The translations under genes and the position numbers were made by a program. The notes under the pieces were generated by a model that had not been told where the DNA came from, made no database searches, and was given only the letters and a program-made list of their open reading frames with translations. DNA of 47,846 bases from contig JAICXL010000010.1 in assembly GCA_025980475.1 (NCBI GenBank), forward strand, positions 1 to 47,846, read 5' to 3'. Source of the stretch: Nocardioidaceae bacterium. GTDB lineage: Bacteria > Actinomycetota > Actinomycetes > Propionibacteriales > Nocardioidaceae. Positions 38,032 to 47,846 of the stretch are shown here, one piece after another (the first letter of the stretch is position 1; each line of letters starts with the position of its first letter).

Positions 38032-39216
38032 ATGACTGACGCCTTCGTCTACGACGCTGTCCGGACGCCCTTCGGCAGGTTCAACGGCGGCCTGGCCAGG
38101 GTGCGTCCCGACGACCTGGCCGCCACCGTGCTGAAGGCCGTCGTCGAGCGGACGCCGGAGCTGGCCGAGTACCCGGTCGACGAGGTGGTGCTGGGAGACG
38201 CGAACCAGGCAGGTGAGGACAACCGCAACGTGGCCCGGATGGCGCTGCTGCTGGCCGGCTACCCGACCACGGTCCCGGCGAGCACCGTCAACCGGCTGTG
38301 CGGGTCGAGCCTGGACGCGGCGATCGTGGCCTCGCGCGCGATCGAGACCGGCGACGCCGAGGTGGTCCTCAGCGGCGGTGTCGAGTCGATGACCCGGGCG
38401 CCGTGGGTGCTTCCCAAGCCGGAGCGGGCATTCCCGGCCGGCAACACCACGGCAGTCTCCACGACGCTGGGCTGGCGGCTGGTCAACACTGACATGCCGC
38501 CGGAGTGGACGGTGTCCCTGGGCGAGGCCAACGAGCAGCTGCGCGAGGAGCTCGGGATCTCCCGGGAGCGCCAGGACGAGTTCGCCGCGCGCTCGCACCG
38601 GCTCGCCGACGAGGCCTGGACCGGCGGCTTCTACGACGACCTCACCATCCGGGTCGAGGGCACCGACCTGGCCCGCGACGAGTCGATCCGGCCGGACAGT
38701 ACCCCGGAGGTGCTGGCCGGCCTGAAGCCGAGCTTCCGCCCGGACGGGTCGATCACCGCCGGCAACGCCTCGCCGCTCAACGACGGCGCCTCTGCGGTGC
38801 TGCTCGGCTCGGAGCAGGCGGCCGCCCGGCTGGGCCGGGAGCCGATCGCCCGGATCGCCGGACGCGGCGCCTACGCCCTCGAACCGCACCGCTTCGGCCT
38901 CGCGCCCGTCGAGGCCGCCAACCGTGCCCTGCAACGCGCAGGCATCGACTGGGGCGACGTCGGCGCCGTCGAGCTGAACGAGGCCTTCGCCGTGCAGTCG
39001 CTCGCCTGCATCGACGCCTGGAAGGTCGATCCCGAGACCGTCAACACCCGCGGCGGCGCGATCGCCATCGGCCACCCGCTCGGTGCCTCCGGCGGACGGA
39101 TCCTCGGCACGCTGACGAAGGTGATGCGCCAGGACCGGGTGCGCTGGGGCGTCGCGGCGATCTGCATCGGCGTCGGCCAGGGCCTGGCGGTCGTCCTCGA
39201 GAACCCGAACGCCTGA
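38032..39216 (+). CDS. pcaF: Acetyl-CoA C-acyltransferase, beta-ketoadipyl-CoA thiolase type
   Basis: Thiolase that cleaves 3-oxoadipyl-CoA to succinyl-CoA and acetyl-CoA, the last step of the beta-ketoadipate route. The 394 residues carry the nucleophile Cys in NRLCGSSLDAA (about residue 90), GGVESMTRAPWV, NEAFAVQ, GGAIAIGHPLGASGGR (catalytic His) and the second Cys in AAICIGVGQG. The N-terminus FVYDAVRTPFGRFNGGLA and the stretch GEDNRNVARMALLLAGYP are PcaF-like. The divergent hydroxyquinol-type dioxygenase supports this. Other degradative thiolases (FadA) remain possible. Confidence 0.85.
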   Translation: MTDAFVYDAVRTPFGRFNGGLARVRPDDLAATVLKAVVERTPELAEYPVDEVVLGDANQAGEDNRNVARMALLLAGYPTTVPASTVNRLCGSSLDAAIVASRAIETGDAEVVLSGGVESMTRAPWVLPKPERAFPAGNTTAVSTTLGWRLVNTDMPPEWTVSLGEANEQLREELGISRERQDEFAARSHRLADEAWTGGFYDDLTIRVEGTDLARDESIRPDSTPEVLAGLKPSFRPDGSITAGNASPLNDGASAVLLGSEQAAARLGREPIARIAGRGAYALEPHRFGLAPVEAANRALQRAGIDWGDVGAVELNEAFAVQSLACIDAWKVDPETVNTRGGAIAIGHPLGASGGRILGTLTKVMRQDRVRWGVAAICIGVGQGLAVVLENPNA

Positions 39217-41657: not shown

Positions 41658-42407
41658 CTAGACGATCCGCCGCAGCAGGGGCAGCGGCGCGTGCTTCAGC
41701 AGGTGCTTCATCGGCTCCCACGGCAGCGTCGGCACGCACGCGGAGGCCTTCTCCTTCTCGATCGCGTCGACCATCGCCCGCACACCCTTCCCGGTGCTCA
41801 CCATCATCGGCTGACTCAGGTGCTCGTTCATCTCGGTGGCGATGTAGCCGGGGTAGAGGACGGTGACCCTGATCGGCGTGCCGTGGAGCTCGGCGCGCAA
41901 CCCCTCGGCCAGCATCGCGACGCCGGCCTTGCTCGCGGCATAGGTGGTCATCGACCTCGGCATCCCGCGCATCGCCGACATCGAGCTCACCACGACGAGA
42001 TGGCCCGCCCCTTGGGCGCGAAAGATCTCCATCGCCGCCTCGAGCTGGGCGAGCGCCCCCACGAAGTCGGTGACCGCGGTCGCCCTGTTGGCGTCGTACC
42101 TCCCGGTGCCCAGCGGGGCGCCCTTGCCGATGCCGGCGTTGACCACGACCCGGTCGACGGTCCCGAACGACTGCTGGAAGGCCCGGAAGACCTCGAAGAC
42201 AGCCTCGTCGTCGGTCACGTCCAGCGGCCGCACCTCGACGCGACGGTCCGGGTGCTCGGCGGTGATCTCGGCCTCGAGCGCGTCGAGGTTCGCGGTGCGA
42301 CGCGCGCACAGCGCCAGGTCGTGGCCGAGCGCGGCGAACTGTCGCGCCATCTCGGCACCGAGCCCGCTGCTGGCGCCGGTGATCAGGATCGTGTGGCGGT
42401 GGGGCAT
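41658..42407 (-). CDS. SDR-family NAD(P)-dependent oxidoreductase
   Basis: Classical short-chain dehydrogenase of 249 residues: cofactor loop TGASSGLG (10-17), ARR after beta 2 suggesting NADPH, VNAGIG, catalytic Ser in VVVSSMSAM and YAASK. The C-terminal EKEKASACVPTLPWEPMKHLLK tail resembles the group of actinobacterial SDRs that follow lipid or CoA genes. It is 9 bases downstream of the histidine phosphatase but has its own TAGGGT box formed from that gene's stop, so it can be expressed separately. Confidence 0.88.
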   Translation of the reverse strand: MPHRHTILITGASSGLGAEMARQFAALGHDLALCARRTANLDALEAEITAEHPDRRVEVRPLDVTDDEAVFEVFRAFQQSFGTVDRVVVNAGIGKGAPLGTGRYDANRATAVTDFVGALAQLEAAMEIFRAQGAGHLVVVSSMSAMRGMPRSMTTYAASKAGVAMLAEGLRAELHGTPIRVTVLYPGYIATEMNEHLSQPMMVSTGKGVRAMVDAIEKEKASACVPTLPWEPMKHLLKHAPLPLLRRIV

Positions 42408-42413
42408 GGGCAG

Positions 42414-42419
42414 ACCCTA
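42414..42419 (-). promoter_or_regulatory. -10 element (TAGGGT) built from the phosphatase stop codon
   Basis: The TAG stop of the phosphatase (42419-42417) plus GGT forms TAGGGT, followed by 6 bases and the SDR ATG at 42407. There is no Shine-Dalgarno, so the SDR mRNA would be leaderless. Confidence 0.55.
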
Positions 42420-43040
42420 GCGATAGCTGGTCAGGCCCGGTTCGCCGTCCAGGTGGCTGTGGTCGTTGAAGGAGACCAGCGTCAGGCCACGCCGCCCGCT
42501 GACCACCCGGGTCACGCCGGTGTTGACGACCACGGGCGCCAGCCGGCGGTAGCTGTCGGTCCCGGCCGCCAGCAGGTGCGCCACCACCCAACTGACCGGC
42601 CCGCCGGAGGTCACCACCACGACGGTGCCCGCGCCGGCGGCGGCGCGTTCGAGCGCCCTCTCCACCCGGCCGGTGAACGCCGCGAACGACTCGGCGTAGT
42701 CGTCGTCGCCCGCGATCCACCGGTCGGTCGCCGCCTCGAACCAGGCCTGGAAACCCAGTCCCTGCTGGGGATGGCGGGACAGCACCTCGAGGTGGTCCAT
42801 CTCGTCCCAGTCGGGGTCACACTGCGGCGACAGGTCCCAGCCGGCCGACTCGGCGAGGATCTCGGCAGTACGCCGCTGCCGCACCATCCGGCCGTGCAGC
42901 AGGGCGGAGGGGAAGACGCCGCGCGCCGCGAACGACGCGCCCAGCACCGCGGCCTGGCGCTCGCCGAGCGCCGACAGCACGTCGTAGTCGTCGCCGCCGA
43001 ACGACGCCTGCCCGTGCCGGACGAGGAGCAGCTGGCCCAT
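42417..43040 (-). CDS. Histidine phosphatase (phosphoglycerate-mutase-like)
   Basis: A 207-residue branch-1 histidine phosphatase: VRHGQAS with the phosphorylated His H9 at the start, HGRMVRQRRTAEILAE with the second Arg, and VVVVTSGGPV in place of the more usual xxSHGG near residue 150, so the late catalytic His seems replaced (TSGGP). In branch-1 enzymes that His binds phosphate, so activity may be altered. Its ATG overlaps the kinase stop by one base. In this operon it could remove phosphate from an intermediate or by-product of the kinase; that is inference. Confidence 0.85.
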   Translation of the reverse strand: MGQLLLVRHGQASFGGDDYDVLSALGERQAAVLGASFAARGVFPSALLHGRMVRQRRTAEILAESAGWDLSPQCDPDWDEMDHLEVLSRHPQQGLGFQAWFEAATDRWIAGDDDYAESFAAFTGRVERALERAAAGAGTVVVVTSGGPVSWVVAHLLAAGTDSYRRLAPVVVNTGVTRVVSGRRGLTLVSFNDHSHLDGEPGLTSYR

Positions 43041-44104
43041 CAGGTCAGGGAGTCGCAGCGGTGCACGAGGTACTCCGCCGCCGGGCCGAAAATCGCGAAC
43101 GCCTCGTTGGTGGTCTGCCGGTGGAAGTAGCGGTAGTAGATCTGCTGGGCGATCACCGCGAGCCGGAAGAGCCCGTAGACCTCGTAGAACCGCCACTGCT
43201 CCGGTGTCACCGGGAGGCCCATCGCCTCGGTGTAGTAGCCGACGACCTCGGCACGGCTGAGCATCCCGGGCAGGTTCGTCGGCTGCCGGCGGAACTCGCG
43301 GAAGAACGCGTCGTCGTCGTCGTTGATCCAGTAGGCCAGGGTGCCACCGAGGTCCATCAGGGGGTCGCCGAGGGTCGCCATCTCCCAGTCGAGGACACCG
43401 ATGACGCGGGTGGGATCGTCGCGGTCGAGCACGAGGTTGTCGAAGCGGAAGTCGTTGTGGATCAGGCAGTTCGCCACGTCTGGTGGCTGCTCGGCGGCGA
43501 GCCACGCCATCACCCGCTCGCCCTGCGCGTCCCGGTCGGGGCCGATGTCGTCGGTGTGGGCGTTGCGGAACCGGGCCGACCAGCCGTCGACCTGCCGGCG
43601 GACGTAGCCGGTGCCCTTGCCGAGCGCGGCGATCTCCGGGATCGCGGTGTCGACCCGGTGCAGCGCGACCAGCACGTCCAGGGCGTTCGTGCAGAGTCGT
43701 CGTACGCCTGCCTCGTCGAGCTCCACGCCCGGCGGCAGGTCTCGCCGCGGGATCAGTCCCTCGATCCGCTCCATCACGTAGAACTCCGAGCCGATCACCG
43801 TCTCGTCCGTGCAGAGGGCGACCATCTCCGGCACCAGCCCGAAGGGCTCGGCGAGCGCCGACTGGATCCGGAACTCCCGGCCCATGTCGTGGGCGCCCCT
43901 CGCCTTCCGTCCCGAGGGCGGCCGGCGCAGGATCAGGTCCGCGTCACCGGCGCGCAGTGAGTAGGTCAGGTTGGACGCACCCCCCTTGAACTGCCGCACG
44001 TCGACGTCGCCGACGAGCCTGACGCCGACCGCCGCCAGCCAGGCCCGGACCGCCTCGACGTCGAAGGCGTCCTCGTCGCGGACCGGGCCGGCGCCCTCGA
44101 TCAC
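43040..44104 (-). CDS. APH-family phosphotransferase (ACAD10/11-type kinase)
   Basis: A 354-residue protein-kinase-like small-molecule kinase. The nucleotide-loop QFKGGASNLTYSL (38-50) and LILRRPP (58-64) are followed by the catalytic loop LIHNDFRFDN with D218 and N223, and the metal-binding D239 in GVLDWEMATLGDP. This FKGGxSNLTY subgroup is found fused to or beside acyl-CoA dehydrogenases (ACAD10/ACAD11, LvaA) where it phosphorylates hydroxyacyl-CoA; aminoglycoside resistance is unlikely. The GTG at 44104 overlaps the SDR stop and the gene abuts the phosphatase start, so the four genes are translated together. Confidence 0.88.
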   Translation of the reverse strand: MIEGAGPVRDEDAFDVEAVRAWLAAVGVRLVGDVDVRQFKGGASNLTYSLRAGDADLILRRPPSGRKARGAHDMGREFRIQSALAEPFGLVPEMVALCTDETVIGSEFYVMERIEGLIPRRDLPPGVELDEAGVRRLCTNALDVLVALHRVDTAIPEIAALGKGTGYVRRQVDGWSARFRNAHTDDIGPDRDAQGERVMAWLAAEQPPDVANCLIHNDFRFDNLVLDRDDPTRVIGVLDWEMATLGDPLMDLGGTLAYWINDDDDAFFREFRRQPTNLPGMLSRAEVVGYYTEAMGLPVTPEQWRFYEVYGLFRLAVIAQQIYYRYFHRQTTNEAFAIFGPAAEYLVHRCDSLT

Positions 44105-44847
44105 AGCTGCTCCAGCTTCTCCGCCTGCGCCCGCATCACCGCGTCGTAGGCAGCCCGGTCGTGCTGCTTGAGCGCCCACGCGTCGCGTGCGGCCTGGTCG
44201 GGCAGGATCACCTCGTCGCCGCGCTCCATGCCCTCGAGCACCGCCGCCGCGATGTCGTCAGCGCTGGTCGGGCTCTCCTCGACCAGGCGGGACACCACCG
44301 CGCCGAGCGCCGCGTCGGCCCCCTGCATCGACGCCATCAGGTTGGTCCGGAAGTACGACGGACAGACCACGCTGGCGCGGATGCCGTGGGACGCGAGCTC
44401 GTGCCCGATCGTCTCGGTGAAGGCGACGACGCCGGCCTTCACCGCGTTGTAGGAACCCATCCCAGCAGGGTGCACCAGCCCGGCGAGCGAGGCGACGTTG
44501 ACGATGTGGCCGGAGCGCTGCTGCTTGAGCATCGGTACGAAGATCCGGGTGCCGCGCACGACGCCGAAGAGGTTCACCGAGGTGATCCACTCCCACTCCG
44601 CCAGCGTGGCCACGTCGACCCGGCCGCCCCCGGCGACACCGGCGTTGTTGACCAGCACGTCCAGGCCGCCCCAGTGCGCGGCGACCCAGTCGCGGGCCGC
44701 AGCCCAGTCGTCGTCGGAGCGCACGTCGAGGTGCCGGTCGGAGGGCGGGGCCACGTCGCAGGACAGCACGTCGTCGCCACGCGCCCGGAACCGCTCGACG
44801 AGCGCGGCCCCGAGCCCGGACGCGCCGCCCGTGACCAGGACCCTCAC
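44101..44847 (-). CDS. SDR-family NAD(P)-dependent oxidoreductase in the ACAD/kinase operon
   Basis: Short-chain dehydrogenase of 248 residues with TGGASGLG (6-13), CDVAPP after beta 2 (acidic Asp, suggesting NAD), VNNAGVAGG, catalytic Ser in NVASLAG and Tyr-Lys in SYNAVKAG. It overlaps the dehydrogenase stop (GTGA) and the kinase start (GTGA). In an acyl-CoA pathway it could oxidise a hydroxyacyl-CoA or reduce a keto group before phosphorylation. Substrate not readable. Confidence 0.9.
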   Translation of the reverse strand: MRVLVTGGASGLGAALVERFRARGDDVLSCDVAPPSDRHLDVRSDDDWAAARDWVAAHWGGLDVLVNNAGVAGGGRVDVATLAEWEWITSVNLFGVVRGTRIFVPMLKQQRSGHIVNVASLAGLVHPAGMGSYNAVKAGVVAFTETIGHELASHGIRASVVCPSYFRTNLMASMQGADAALGAVVSRLVEESPTSADDIAAAVLEGMERGDEVILPDQAARDAWALKQHDRAAYDAVMRAQAEKLEQL

Positions 44848-46094
44848 GCGTGCTTGCCGATCTCGAGCTTCGCGACGACGCCGCGGTGCACCTCGTCGGG
44901 CCCGTCGGCCAGCCGCAGCGACCGGGCGTTGGTCCACATCGCGGCCAGCGGGAAGTCCGAGGACAGCCCGCCGCCGCCGTGCAGCTGGATCGCCATGTCG
45001 ATCACTCTCTGGGCGACGTTGGGGACGACCACCTTGATCTGGCTGACCTCCGACAGCGCGTTCATCGGGCCACCGACGTCGAGCTTCCAGGCGGCGTTGA
45101 GCACGAGCAGCCGGGCCTGGTCGATCGCCATCCTGGCCTCGGCGATCCGCTCCTGGTTTCCGCCGAGCTTGACCAGCGGCCGGCCGAACGCCGTGCGCGA
45201 CAGCCCCCGCTTCACCGCCAGCTCCAGGGCCACCTCGGCCTGCCCGATGAGCCGCATGCAGTGGTGGACCCGGCCCGGGCCGAGCCGGCCCTGGGCGATC
45301 TCGAAGGCCCGGCCCTCGCCGAGCAGGATGTTCGACGCCGGCACCCGCACGTCGGTGAACGACACCTCGCCGTGGCCGACCGGCTCGTCCTGCATCGCCA
45401 TCGTGTCCAGCAGCCGCTCGACCTTCACACCCGGGGTGTCCAGCGGCACCAGCACCATCGTGTGGCGGTGGTGCCGGTCGGCCTCAGGGTCCGAGAGTCC
45501 CATGAAGACGAGGATCCGGCAGTCCGGGTGGCCGACCCCGCTCGACCACCACTTGCGGCCGTTGATCACCACCTCGTCGCCCTCGACGACCGCGGTGGCC
45601 TGCATGTTGGTGGCGTCGGAGGAGGCGACGCCGGGCTCGGTCATCGTGAACGCGGAGCGGATCCGGCCGTCGAGCAGCGGCTCGAGCCACTGCGTCTTCT
45701 GCTCGTCGGTGCCGTACCTCAGCAGCACCTCCATGTTGCCGGTGTCGGGCGCGTTGCAGTTCATGGCGTACGGCGCGATGCTCGTCGCCCGGCCCATCAG
45801 CTCGGCCAGTGGAGCGTAGTCGGTGTTCGACAGGCCTTCGCCGCCGTGGGTGCCGAACCGGCGGGCGTAGTCACCGGCGTGCTCCACCGGGAGGAAGAGG
45901 TTCCACAGCCCCCGCTCGCGCGCCTTGGCGCGCAGCTCGGTCATCAACGGGTGCTCGGTCCACATCTCCGGCGTGCCCCGCCGAGCCATCAGGTCGCGGT
46001 GGTAGCCCTCCTCGCGCGGGGCGATCTCGGCGTCGACGAAGTCGGCGACGAGGTCGGAGAGCTCCTGGGCGCGCGGCGAGAGCGAGAAATCCAT
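44844..46094 (-). CDS. Acyl-CoA dehydrogenase, ACAD10/ACAD11-like
   Basis: FAD enzyme of 416 residues. FTMTEPGVASSDATNM (around 148-163), NGRKWWSSGVGHPDC, TMAMQDEPVGHGEVSFTDVRVP and RTAFGRPLVKLGGNQERIAEARM are the ACAD11-type sequence. At the position of the MCAD catalytic glutamate the protein has D397 within LADGPDEVH, which is typical of this subgroup and suggests chemistry other than simple alpha,beta oxidation. In the LvaC/ACAD11 family it eliminates phosphate from a 4-phosphoacyl-CoA. First gene of a coupled operon with SDR, APH kinase and phosphatase. The ATG at 46094 is 6 bases after TAGGGT. Confidence 0.9.
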   Translation of the reverse strand: MDFSLSPRAQELSDLVADFVDAEIAPREEGYHRDLMARRGTPEMWTEHPLMTELRAKARERGLWNLFLPVEHAGDYARRFGTHGGEGLSNTDYAPLAELMGRATSIAPYAMNCNAPDTGNMEVLLRYGTDEQKTQWLEPLLDGRIRSAFTMTEPGVASSDATNMQATAVVEGDEVVINGRKWWSSGVGHPDCRILVFMGLSDPEADRHHRHTMVLVPLDTPGVKVERLLDTMAMQDEPVGHGEVSFTDVRVPASNILLGEGRAFEIAQGRLGPGRVHHCMRLIGQAEVALELAVKRGLSRTAFGRPLVKLGGNQERIAEARMAIDQARLLVLNAAWKLDVGGPMNALSEVSQIKVVVPNVAQRVIDMAIQLHGGGGLSSDFPLAAMWTNARSLRLADGPDEVHRGVVAKLEIGKHA

Positions 46095-46100
46095 GGTCGA

Positions 46101-46106
46101 ACCCTA
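46101..46106 (-). promoter_or_regulatory. -10 element (TAGGGT) built from the DUF4012 gene stop codon
   Basis: The TAG stop of the DUF4012 gene (46106-46104) with GGT gives TAGGGT, then 6 bases and the dehydrogenase ATG at 46094; probable leaderless promoter of the four-gene operon. Confidence 0.55.
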
Positions 46107-47846
46107 GTCACCGCAGCTGGATGGCGCGGTGGCACGGTTGGCGGTCTCCTCGGCGGTCGGTGTCGAGGTCAGCACGGGGTCACCGGTCTGGTGCCTTCCG
46201 GAGCGCATCCGGCTCGTGACGACGACCCGCTGGCCGGGCCGGAGCAGCACCGGCACGCTGGTCACCTGCCGGTCCTGCTGCCGGTCGGCGGTGACCGTCA
46301 CCGGCCGGCCGTCGATCCTCACCGAGGTGATCGCCCCTCCAGTGGGACCGTAGAGCCAGGCGTTGACCCGCATGGAGCCCAGCGGCGCGTAGGTTCCGGG
46401 CCCGGTGACGTACGGCGACAGCATGGCGGCGTCCTTCGGGGCGGTGGAGCCGAGCACGACCCGGGAGCGCAGCTGCTGCACACCCGACGGCGCACAGCCC
46501 GTCGAGCGGAGCTGCGACCGGAGCCGCAGGTAGAACTCCATCTTGGTGGCGGTCGCGTCGTCGAGGTAGACGCCGACCTGCGGTGCGCCGCCGGACCCGT
46601 CGGGCAGGGCGCCGGACAGCCTGGTGCCGTCCAGCGCACGCTGCTCGCGGGCGTGCCGCGACCAGACCAGCACGCGGCCGCGGTCCACGGCGGTGACCAG
46701 GCCCTGGGTGACCTGGCGCGCGTCACCTTGACCGCGGGTCACCCCTTTGAAGACGGCCCGCGCCGCGGCGTTGAAGAAGTCGTTCTGCAGCTGGCCGTCC
46801 TGGATGGTCCGGTAGACCCGGTTCAGCAGCGTGGGCACGACGTTGGCGCCGGTCAGCGTGGTGCGCCGGCCCCGGAACTGCACCGGCACTGGGCCGGTGC
46901 CGTCGAGCACGTGCGCCAGCGCGACGGGGTCGACGGCGACCACTCCGTCGACCCGGACGTGGTGGTCGCGTCGCAGCAGCGTGGCGGCCATCCTGGCCAC
47001 GTCGGGGTAGTCGGGGTCGAAGTTCATGTCCCGGAAGTCGGTGCCGAGGTCGGAACCGTAGAGCGCCTTCACCCCGGCCGGCAGCGGCACGACCGGTCGC
47101 GGGAGCGGCGGCATGTCGGTGTCCGCTCCCTGCAGGCCCATCCGGATCCGGCCGTGGTCGGCGTGCAGCACGGCCCAGGACCCCGCCATCCCGCCGGTTG
47201 CGCGGATCTCGGCGTTGTTCTGCACCAGCAGCAGGTAGGACCGGGGGCCGTGAGCGCCGAGCATCACCGGCAGCACGCGCAGCGCCGTCGACGCGGCGTC
47301 GGCGGCTCCCCGGGCCGTGGCGACCTGCGACTGCAGGTGCCGGTAGGTGTCCCGGACGGGCCCGAGCACGTCGGCGGGGTCGATGGTGGCCAGGCTGCGG
47401 TGCGCGGCGTCGAGAGCCGTGGCCGCCCGCGCCACCGACGGAGCCAGCGCCTGCATCGGCGCGAGCCGCAGGGCCCCGTGGCGGGGGGCGAAGGCGCCGT
47501 GCGTGAGCGCTCCGGCCAGCCGGGTGGCCGCTGGGAGCGCGTCGTTCGCGACCAGGTCGATGCTTCCCGCCGCCGTCTGCACGGCCCGGAAGGTCCCCCC
47601 GACGAACGGTAGCCGTCCGGCCAGCCACCACAGTGGTCCGTCGGAGCGGTGGTGCGCCCGGTCTGCACTGCGCTGCAGGTCGGCGACCGTCGACGTGGCC
47701 CCCGCGACGTCGCCCTGGCGCAGCTGGTCCTCGAGCTGTCCTGCCTGCGACCGCGCGGTGGTCAGGGCGAGACCGGCGGTGACCACCTCGAAGGCGAAGA
47801 ACCCGGCCACGACAACCACGACGGCGGCTGCTCCGAGGAGCAGCCG
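46104..47846 (-). CDS. DUF4012 membrane-anchored protein (5' end outside window)
   Basis: A DUF4012 protein, a family with no assigned enzyme activity, found in actinomycetes near surface-polysaccharide genes. At least 580 residues are visible. The frame stays open to the right edge and the first visible residues (RLLLGAAAVVVVAGFFAFEVV) are a transmembrane helix, so the true start lies outside; a GTG at 47819 is inside that helix. The bulk is extracytoplasmic: an N-terminal helical part (SQAGQLEDQLRQGD), then PRSYLLLVQNNAEIRATGGMAG, typical of DUF4012, and DGVVAVDPVALAHVLDGTGPV. It shares no operon overlap with the dehydrogenase but its stop makes the next promoter's -10. Confidence 0.88.
   Translation of the reverse strand, partial: RLLLGAAAVVVVVAGFFAFEVVTAGLALTTARSQAGQLEDQLRQGDVAGATSTVADLQRSADRAHHRSDGPLWWLAGRLPFVGGTFRAVQTAAGSIDLVANDALPAATRLAGALTHGAFAPRHGALRLAPMQALAPSVARAATALDAAHRSLATIDPADVLGPVRDTYRHLQSQVATARGAADAASTALRVLPVMLGAHGPRSYLLLVQNNAEIRATGGMAGSWAVLHADHGRIRMGLQGADTDMPPLPRPVVPLPAGVKALYGSDLGTDFRDMNFDPDYPDVARMAATLLRRDHHVRVDGVVAVDPVALAHVLDGTGPVPVQFRGRRTTLTGANVVPTLLNRVYRTIQDGQLQNDFFNAAARAVFKGVTRGQGDARQVTQGLVTAVDRGRVLVWSRHAREQRALDGTRLSGALPDGSGGAPQVGVYLDDATATKMEFYLRLRSQLRSTGCAPSGVQQLRSRVVLGSTAPKDAAMLSPYVTGPGTYAPLGSMRVNAWLYGPTGGAITSVRIDGRPVTVTADRQQDRQVTSVPVLLRPGQRVVVTSRMRSGRHQTGDPVLTSTPTAEETANRATAPSSCGD

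Follow-up and report, generated by a model that had tools for sequence, protein, structure and literature searches.

A Candidate 4-Hydroxyacyl-CoA Phospho-Isomerisation Operon with an Atypical Histidine-Phosphatase-Fold Protein in a Nocardioidaceae Bacterium

The subject of this study was a group of five minus-strand genes (positions 41658–46094) on contig JAICXL010000010.1 of a Nocardioidaceae bacterium (assembly GCA_025980475.1). The whole stretch analysed, 47,846 nucleotides and hereafter called the window, is one of the 114 contigs of the 2.76-Mb source genome. The first gene (44844–46094; ATG at 46094, stop at 44844, 416 aa) encodes an acyl-coenzyme A (acyl-CoA) dehydrogenase (ACAD) of the ACAD10/11 (LvaC) type, with the Pfam domains PF02771, PF02770, and PF00441. 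The second, SDR1 (44101–44847; GTG at 44847, stop at 44101, 248 aa), encodes a short-chain dehydrogenase/reductase (SDR; the SDR domain is Pfam adh_short, PF00106) and overlaps the ACAD stop in a GTGA sequence. A second GTGA overlap leads into the gene for an APH-fold kinase of the ACAD10/11 type (43040–44104; GTG at 44104, stop at 43040, 354 aa; PF01636, 167 bits with a cut-off of 23.2), and a TGATG overlap into that for a histidine-phosphatase-fold protein, HP (42417–43040; ATG at 43040, stop at 42417, 207 aa; His_Phos_1, PF00300, 83 bits with a cut-off of 21.7). The fifth gene, SDR2 (41658–42407; ATG at 42407, stop at 41658, 249 aa; NCBIfam NF006099, 385.9 bits with a cut-off of 253), begins 9 nt past the HP stop. 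A preliminary description of this DNA had taken the locus to be a four-gene operon at 42417–46094. The four genes are real, and their coordinates, order, and overlaps agree with ours, but SDR2 had been overlooked.

Among solved structures the best match of the window ACAD was 4hr3 (592 bits), entered in the PDB as a "putative acyl-CoA dehydrogenase". Of the solved relatives whose function has been studied, ACAD11 was the nearest (8v3u, 384 bits; its catalytic Asp is Asn in 8v3v); the best match to a medium-chain enzyme (MCAD) reached 141 bits. Residues R270, R275, H278, R281, and D397 of the window ACAD align to R626, R631, H634, R637, and D753 of ACAD11. In the account given for ACAD11, D753 is the catalytic base, R631 orients the substrate, and R626, H634, and R637 make modelled salt bridges to the 4-phospho group, with substitutions ablating the ACAD step (PMC12440821). 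All of these residues were conserved in an alignment of 35 ACADs, comprising the window and the best ACAD of 34 HP loci (matches of at least 300 bits only): the Arg/His/Arg phosphate cluster (R270, H278, R281) together with R275 in 35/35, and the catalytic Asp that takes the place of Glu (D397, in LADGPDEVH) also in 35/35.

The kinase was similarly intact. Its catalytic Asp and Asn (D218 and N223) and its metal-binding Asp (D239) were present in 43/43 aligned kinases (the window and 42 others, at least 150 bits), and its matches among solved structures were 9o56 (222 bits), 3dxp (162 bits), and the kinase domain of ACAD11 (8v3v, 151 bits). The positions given earlier for these three residues and for D397 were correct. 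As described for the family, the kinase produces a 4-phosphoacyl-CoA, from which the ACAD eliminates phosphate to leave a 2-enoyl-CoA, and ACAD10/11 alone turn the phospho-intermediate into 2-enoyl-CoA in vitro (PMC11342911, PMC12440821). Because the homology and the signature residues of both window proteins match this family, we assign the same reaction to them; judged from sequence, phosphorylation followed by phosphate elimination on a 4-hydroxyacyl-CoA is very probably the chemistry of the pair. The proposal of an ACAD10/11 (LvaA/LvaC)-type kinase and ACAD was thus borne out as homology, with every tested signature residue in place. Within the limited number of candidates scored, the source genome held no second kinase (E ≤ 1e-38) or ACAD (E ≤ 1e-75) of this kind.

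HP has the histidine phosphatase fold. Its AF2 model had a pLDDT of 95, and structural comparison (VIA) gave Z scores of 22.4–22.9 to PGAM5 and PhoE, with an rmsd of 2.2–2.9 over 172–187 residues. Like the members of branch 1 of the superfamily (PGAM5, PhoE, CobC, and phosphoserine phosphatase), it keeps the RHG nucleophile motif, the second Arg, and the acid Glu (R8, H9, R54, and E80). The catalytic core of the superfamily also includes a second His, on which the CobC and PGAM5 alignments agree. Unlike branch 1, HP has Ser at this position: in the profile alignment Ser145 (VTSGG) stands opposite the second catalytic His of CobC (VSHQG). Ser occupied position 145 in 81/81 members of a first set, in 109/109 readable members of an enlarged set that takes in alpha-, beta-, and gammaproteobacteria and Deinococcus (one fragment with a gap at residue 145 was excluded), and in 49/49 members of a further set; R8, H9, R54, and E80 were invariant throughout. 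These sets overlap in part and each contains the window; identical rows were dropped from the 109- and 49-row sets, in which the window, further reads of its gene, and genes already present in earlier sets remain. A His near the C terminus, His196, was almost invariant (80/81, 105/110, and 49/49). The 8 readable histidine phosphatase paralogues in the source genome all carry His at the position of Ser145; this count covers 8 of 9 other loci, L193 being omitted because it was apparently read in the wrong frame. The invariance of the nucleophile and the acid suggests, at the level of sequence, that the active site of HP is altered but functioning. The earlier suggestion that the phosphatase recycles phosphorylated by-products is a conjecture, and one about a protein without the second catalytic His of its superfamily. 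What is new here is the presence of Ser in place of the second catalytic His throughout this family, with the rest of the catalytic core kept; no report on loss of this His in histidine phosphatases was found in the open-access literature.

The distribution of the gene set was examined with a profile made from 12 actinobacterial HPs, and 80 HP loci were fetched from named records. These were the best 80 of 558, picked by similarity and by a pattern on residues 8–17, which does not include residue 145, and percentages among them are not population rates. All-versus-all clustering of their open reading frames (ORFs) of at least 130 aa gave families with 25 genus labels for HP (by construction), 17 each for APH and SDR2, 13 for ACAD, and 11 for SDR1. 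Because these five families head the counts and the next has only 6 genus labels, the association of the five genes exceeds chance. In 42 of the 80 loci (18 genus labels) APH was immediately upstream of HP on the same strand; 29 of these had a close upstream ACAD (>50% identity) and 33 a nearby SDR. Marmoricola and three Nocardioides also have the full order ACAD-SDR1-APH-HP-SDR2, as does Zhongshania, a gammaproteobacterium.

Similar arrangements were seen in other collections. HP adjoined a kinase in 10 of 11 plasmid-collection records opened via HP. The kinase was upstream in seven of the 11 (Deinococcus radiodurans, Ideonella, Azospirillum, Pseudoalteromonas, Streptomyces, a Rhodobacteraceae bacterium, and Acinetobacter baumannii, whose record is unannotated and was read by similarity), and HP was upstream in three (Caballeronia, Azoarcus, and Sulfitobacter). 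The Cupriavidus metallidurans record contained HP with no kinase match within the stretch, and four further records opened via the kinase had no annotated HP within 4.5 kb. In the order that contains a Marinobacter genome, HP was present in 192 of 390 sampled genomes, some with 2–4 copies; an APH lay within 1.5 kb in 26 of the 30 best HP loci and was present in 16 of 19 further hand-picked HP regions. The genome search proposed with the preliminary description therefore found the same gene order again: ACAD-(SDR)-APH-HP-(SDR) recurs in Actinomycetota, in alpha-, beta-, and gammaproteobacteria and, in diverged form, in Deinococcus.

Several features of these neighbourhoods were recorded in addition. 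The record labelled as an Acinetobacter baumannii plasmid (L124, NZ_CP064203.1) is 3.97 Mb long and is probably a chromosome; it reads ACAD-APH-HP-SDR2 by similarity. A LysR-type regulator gene (L096, 3522–4478; a cluster of 18 members with 6 genus labels, Pfam run on the representative only) recurs in gammaproteobacterial HP loci, and one is annotated beside the ACAD in three records (Ideonella, Azospirillum, and Pseudoalteromonas), a feature to be expected if the operon is catabolic and inducible. In the window a DUF4012 gene (46104–47819) ends 9 nt ahead of the ACAD, and such a gene is also upstream of the ACAD in L028 and L030 (Marmoricola and Nocardioides marmoriginsengisoli). A thiolase gene (38032–39216; acetyl-CoA C-acyltransferase subfamily, TIGR01930, 414 bits) is located on the opposite strand, 2.4 kb beyond the operon.

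The kinases that adjoin HP belong to more than one group. A tree of 97 kinases set a window-type clade apart from the others. The ACAD11 kinase, on a long branch, fell outside that clade and clustered with L152, L153, L123, L126, L127, and L156 (support 100/100); three of these six bacterial kinases, those of Caballeronia, Azoarcus, and Sulfitobacter, adjoin HP. The sister group as a whole (17 rows) had support of only 96/60, and the tree contained no LvaA. Only the topology was used; the counts of HP and no-HP labels were set aside, being based on a crude distance on stop-to-stop ORFs with several rows mislabelled. Five further loci (L232, L233, L235, L236, and L237) had the order HP-ACAD-APH with a kinase nearer, by similarity, to that of Caballeronia, and at least the genomes of L232 and L236/L237 also carry a window-type set. 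In at least two genomes (G128 and G822), two or more HPs are present, near different kinases. Because HP adjoins two kinase groups, in differing orders and as separate sets within single genomes, it probably belongs to this pathway; we consider this the best evidence for that conclusion.

Co-occurrence was scored in 296 genomes of the window's class, with 6–10 candidates scored per genome, so that matches may have been missed. The window-type kinase (E ≤ 1e-95) was present in 40 genomes, HP in 52, and both in 21; the two genes were adjacent in 17 of these 21 and on different contigs in the other 4. At E ≤ 1e-38, a cut-off that adds kinases approximately 34–41% identical, a kinase was found in 51 of the 52 HP genomes versus 146 of the 244 without HP (Fisher p = 2e-9, ignoring phylogeny). 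The corresponding values for the ACAD (E ≤ 1e-75) were 50/52 versus 135/244 (tallied by eye; Fisher p = 1e-9, again ignoring phylogeny). All 38 HP genomes searched via the named loci held a kinase (E ≤ 1e-30). Among 15 kinase loci from genomes in which HP was missing or located elsewhere, 10 had an ACAD within 80 nt and one more had it behind two SDRs. Because HP was almost never found without a kinase in this sample, whereas kinases were often found without HP, we regard HP as an accessory rather than a core part. That HP is an obligate subunit of the kinase was also considered and was rejected, because 19 of the 40 genomes with a window-type kinase had no HP match and HP also occurs away from kinases.

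Loci without an upstream APH were of several kinds. SDR1, HP, and SDR2 stood together with no kinase or ACAD match in L044, L061, L065, L067, L070, L071, L072, L090, L093, and L099 (Aeromicrobium, Mumia, Nevskiales, and LLX17), with gaps of 0.5–0.7 kb in L061 and L065 and short stretches in L044 and L061. In some Nocardioides, HP was downstream of a FadB-like gene (enoyl-CoA hydratase/3-hydroxyacyl-CoA dehydrogenase), most closely in L057 (about 10 nt) and L034 (about 90 nt), then in L041 and L058 (0.7 kb each) and L063 (2.7 kb). An acyl-CoA ligase gene was 88 nt upstream of HP in L182, and an ACAD gene 0.6 kb downstream in L020. At least 14 of the 38 loci without an upstream APH had a relative of SDR1 or SDR2 (>40% identical) near HP, a count that misses loci with HP away from its usual place.

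The best-described relative of this gene set is the lva operon of Pseudomonas putida KT2440, for which the published accounts describe LvaA, LvaC, LvaD, LvaB, and the CoA ligase LvaE, and mention no HP in the parts that describe it (PMC6692424, PMC11342911, PMC12440821). The window resembles it in encoding a kinase, an Asp-type ACAD, and an SDR together, for a route through a phosphorylated 4-hydroxyacyl-CoA, and differs in adding HP and a second SDR and in having no ligase among its five genes. LvaD is an SDR that is described as reducing levulinyl-CoA to 4-hydroxyvaleryl-CoA (PMC6692424); the earlier suggestion that the SDR prepares the substrate fits this precedent and is, by analogy, plausible. 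A closer parallel for HP is found in the levulinate cluster of Pseudomonas citronellolis LA18T, where Habe et al. (2019) describe a histidine phosphatase gene between the lvaA and lvaC homologues, with no lvaB homologue there; they suggested that it might strip phosphate from 4-phosphovaleryl-CoA and called for functional analysis (PMC6692424). As in the window, an lvaA homologue, a histidine phosphatase family gene, and lvaC and lvaD homologues are close together in that cluster; the gene order is different, and its HP was compared by description only. In the open-access literature searched, part of it judged by title and the start of the abstract, this was the only paper found that ties a histidine phosphatase to the route. 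The remark in the preliminary description that the phosphatase is less described therefore holds to the extent of one paper, with a proposed role, whereas the gene set itself is widespread and the presence of HP is not new.

In animals, ACAD10 and ACAD11 carry out the kinase and ACAD steps in series on 4-hydroxyacyl-CoAs. By alignment the window shares the ACAD11 residues, but its kinase and ACAD are separate genes rather than a single gene product. ACAD10 also has a HAD domain, reported to be without one catalytic Asp, to have negligible phosphatase activity, and to restrain the kinase, whose activity rises when the domain is mutated (PMC11342911). The phosphatase folds differ, HAD in ACAD10 and histidine phosphatase in the window, so any resemblance between them is convergent, and by analogy the bacteria would have met the same need independently with this operon.

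One further candidate link to the lva operon was dropped. We considered whether LvaB is a DUF6285 protein (PF19802) and found no support for this equation. In 9 of the 10 loci inspected (L108–L117) a DUF6285 gene adjoined an APH relative, and the 8 DUF6285-linked kinases included in the tree formed a clade of their own (support 100/100). Just one partner ACAD was read at full length, that of L108 (L165 holds the same gene); it was 31% identical to the window ACAD and matched neither signature pattern, whereas the identity reported for LvaC is 62% to the ACAD10 domain and 56% to that of ACAD11 (PMC11342911). Of the remaining partner ACADs, the one in L112 was a variant (RLGPGRIFHAMR) with no APH in the stretch, and the rest were fragments. 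DUF6285 was present in 5 of 38 HP genomes, and its loci may represent a third kinase/ACAD system.

What was observed here is gene order, residues, conservation, and co-occurrence; from these we infer all the reactions that follow for this organism, as well as the entire role of HP. The operon would channel 4-hydroxyacyl-CoAs into beta-oxidation. The two SDRs would set the oxidation state of C4 (keto or hydroxy) or its stereochemistry, and the kinase would phosphorylate the 4-hydroxyl of the acyl-CoA. The ACAD would then grip the phosphate with Arg270, His278, and Arg281 and, with Asp397 as the base together with FAD, would eliminate it to yield the 2-enoyl-CoA. HP probably acts on phosphate esters through His9, Arg8, Arg54, and Glu80, in a pocket remodelled by Ser145. 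Because hydrolysis of a 4-phosphoacyl-CoA would merely reverse the kinase step, we favour a valve or repair role, in which HP would limit or repair phosphoacyl-CoAs or phospho acids not cleared by the ACAD, such as those with the wrong stereoisomer or position, and would free CoA. In 3T3L1 cells given 4-hydroxyhexanoate, 4-phosphohydroxyhexanoate is reported to have been measured alongside its CoA ester (PMC11342911). Overall, we lean slightly toward an operon for phospho-isomerisation of 4-hydroxyacyl-CoAs in which an atypical protein of phosphatase fold has the accessory task of limiting or repairing phosphorylated acyl-CoA; on the narrower point of whether HP is catalytically active on a phosphorylated metabolite of the pathway, we consider the chances even.

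A number of results weigh against this proposal. No CoA ligase or hydratase was recognized by Pfam among the five genes, which makes the earlier term "self-contained" doubtful; an LvaE-type acyl-CoA ligase was likewise not among the five, to which the search for ligases was confined. The KT2440 lva operon as described needs no HP, and PP_1680, the KT2440 protein that best matches the HP of P. citronellolis, does so at 32% (PMC6692424). There was no APH match within the fetched stretch in 36 of the 80 best HP loci, a few of these stretches being short, nor an APH within 1.5 kb in 4 of the 30 best loci, or within about 5 kb in 3 of the 19 further regions, from the Marinobacter-containing order. 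To these are added the 19 kinase-bearing genomes without an HP match, the reversal of the kinase step by simple hydrolysis, and the missing second His, which may mean that phosphatase activity has been lost. Finally, HP occurs with SDRs alone in Aeromicrobium, Mumia, and Nevskiales, or near FadB-like, ligase, or other ACAD genes, so the compound on which it acts may belong to another part of acyl-CoA metabolism.

The last point leads to an alternative in which HP works for the two SDRs, or for acyl-CoA catabolism in general, on a phosphorylated upstream substrate for instance, and the kinase neighbourhood is one of several contexts. The kinase-free SDR1/HP/SDR2 groups, the SDR relatives near HP in at least 14 of the 38 loci without an upstream APH, and the proximity of HP to a FadB-like gene (L057 and L034), an acyl-CoA ligase (L182), or an ACAD (L020) all fit this view. 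Yet a kinase of this family is still somewhere in 51 of the 52 HP genomes of the class, and HP is adjacent to it in 17 of the 21 genomes with both HP and a window-type kinase, so that we think this alternative rather unlikely. A similar judgement applies to HP as a degenerate regulatory phosphatase that, in the way proposed for the ACAD10 HAD domain, would slow phosphorylation by binding the kinase or the phosphoacyl-CoA, with no turnover of its own. Ser in place of the second catalytic His in every readable HP, the precedent of that domain, which is without one catalytic residue and has negligible activity, its mutation raising kinase activity (PMC11342911), and the separate HP/kinase sets side by side in some genomes would all be consistent with such a brake. 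A mere binding protein would have no need of invariant His9, Arg8, Arg54, and Glu80, however; in none of 148 loci was HP fused to APH or ACAD, and HP is also found without a nearby kinase. This too is a possibility that we judge unlikely to hold.

Two other readings have less to commend them. The suggestion of Habe et al. for P. citronellolis, by which HP would take a productive part in removing phosphate from 4-phosphovaleryl-CoA, is consistent with the position of the HP gene beside an lvaA homologue in a levulinate-related cluster where no lvaB was found (PMC6692424). The product would be the 4-hydroxyacyl-CoA again, the phospho-intermediate is reported to be converted by ACAD10/11 alone in vitro, and all residues mapped to that step are present in the window ACAD; we therefore regard this role as very unlikely. 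Even less credible, to the point where we give it hardly any weight, is an ordinary acyl-CoA dehydrogenase operon accompanied by a small-molecule kinase of unrelated function. The generic names given to the parts in annotated records would accord with such an operon, but the presence in 35/35 ACADs of an Arg/His/Arg phosphate cluster, and of Asp instead of the catalytic Glu, would not.

The proposed operon with its accessory phosphatase-fold protein can be viewed alongside ACAD10. Tentatively, and with less than even confidence, we suggest that a phosphatase-fold partner missing one catalytic residue was recruited to the 4-hydroxyacyl-CoA kinase/ACAD module on more than one occasion, to keep phosphoacyl-CoA in check, namely HP with Ser for His in bacteria and HAD in animal ACAD10, and that the Ser145 family is a dedicated phosphoacyl-CoA valve or sensor. 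If this is true, it would be a new function for the histidine phosphatase superfamily. The operon would provide a stand-alone, genetically separable counterpart of the phosphatase-like domain of ACAD10, in which the question of a phosphoacyl-CoA safety valve could be tested directly. HP marks a histidine phosphatase subfamily with a conserved and unexplained change in its catalytic core, and such a role would assign a function to a protein that is common, as its presence in about half of the sampled genomes of the Marinobacter-containing order indicates.

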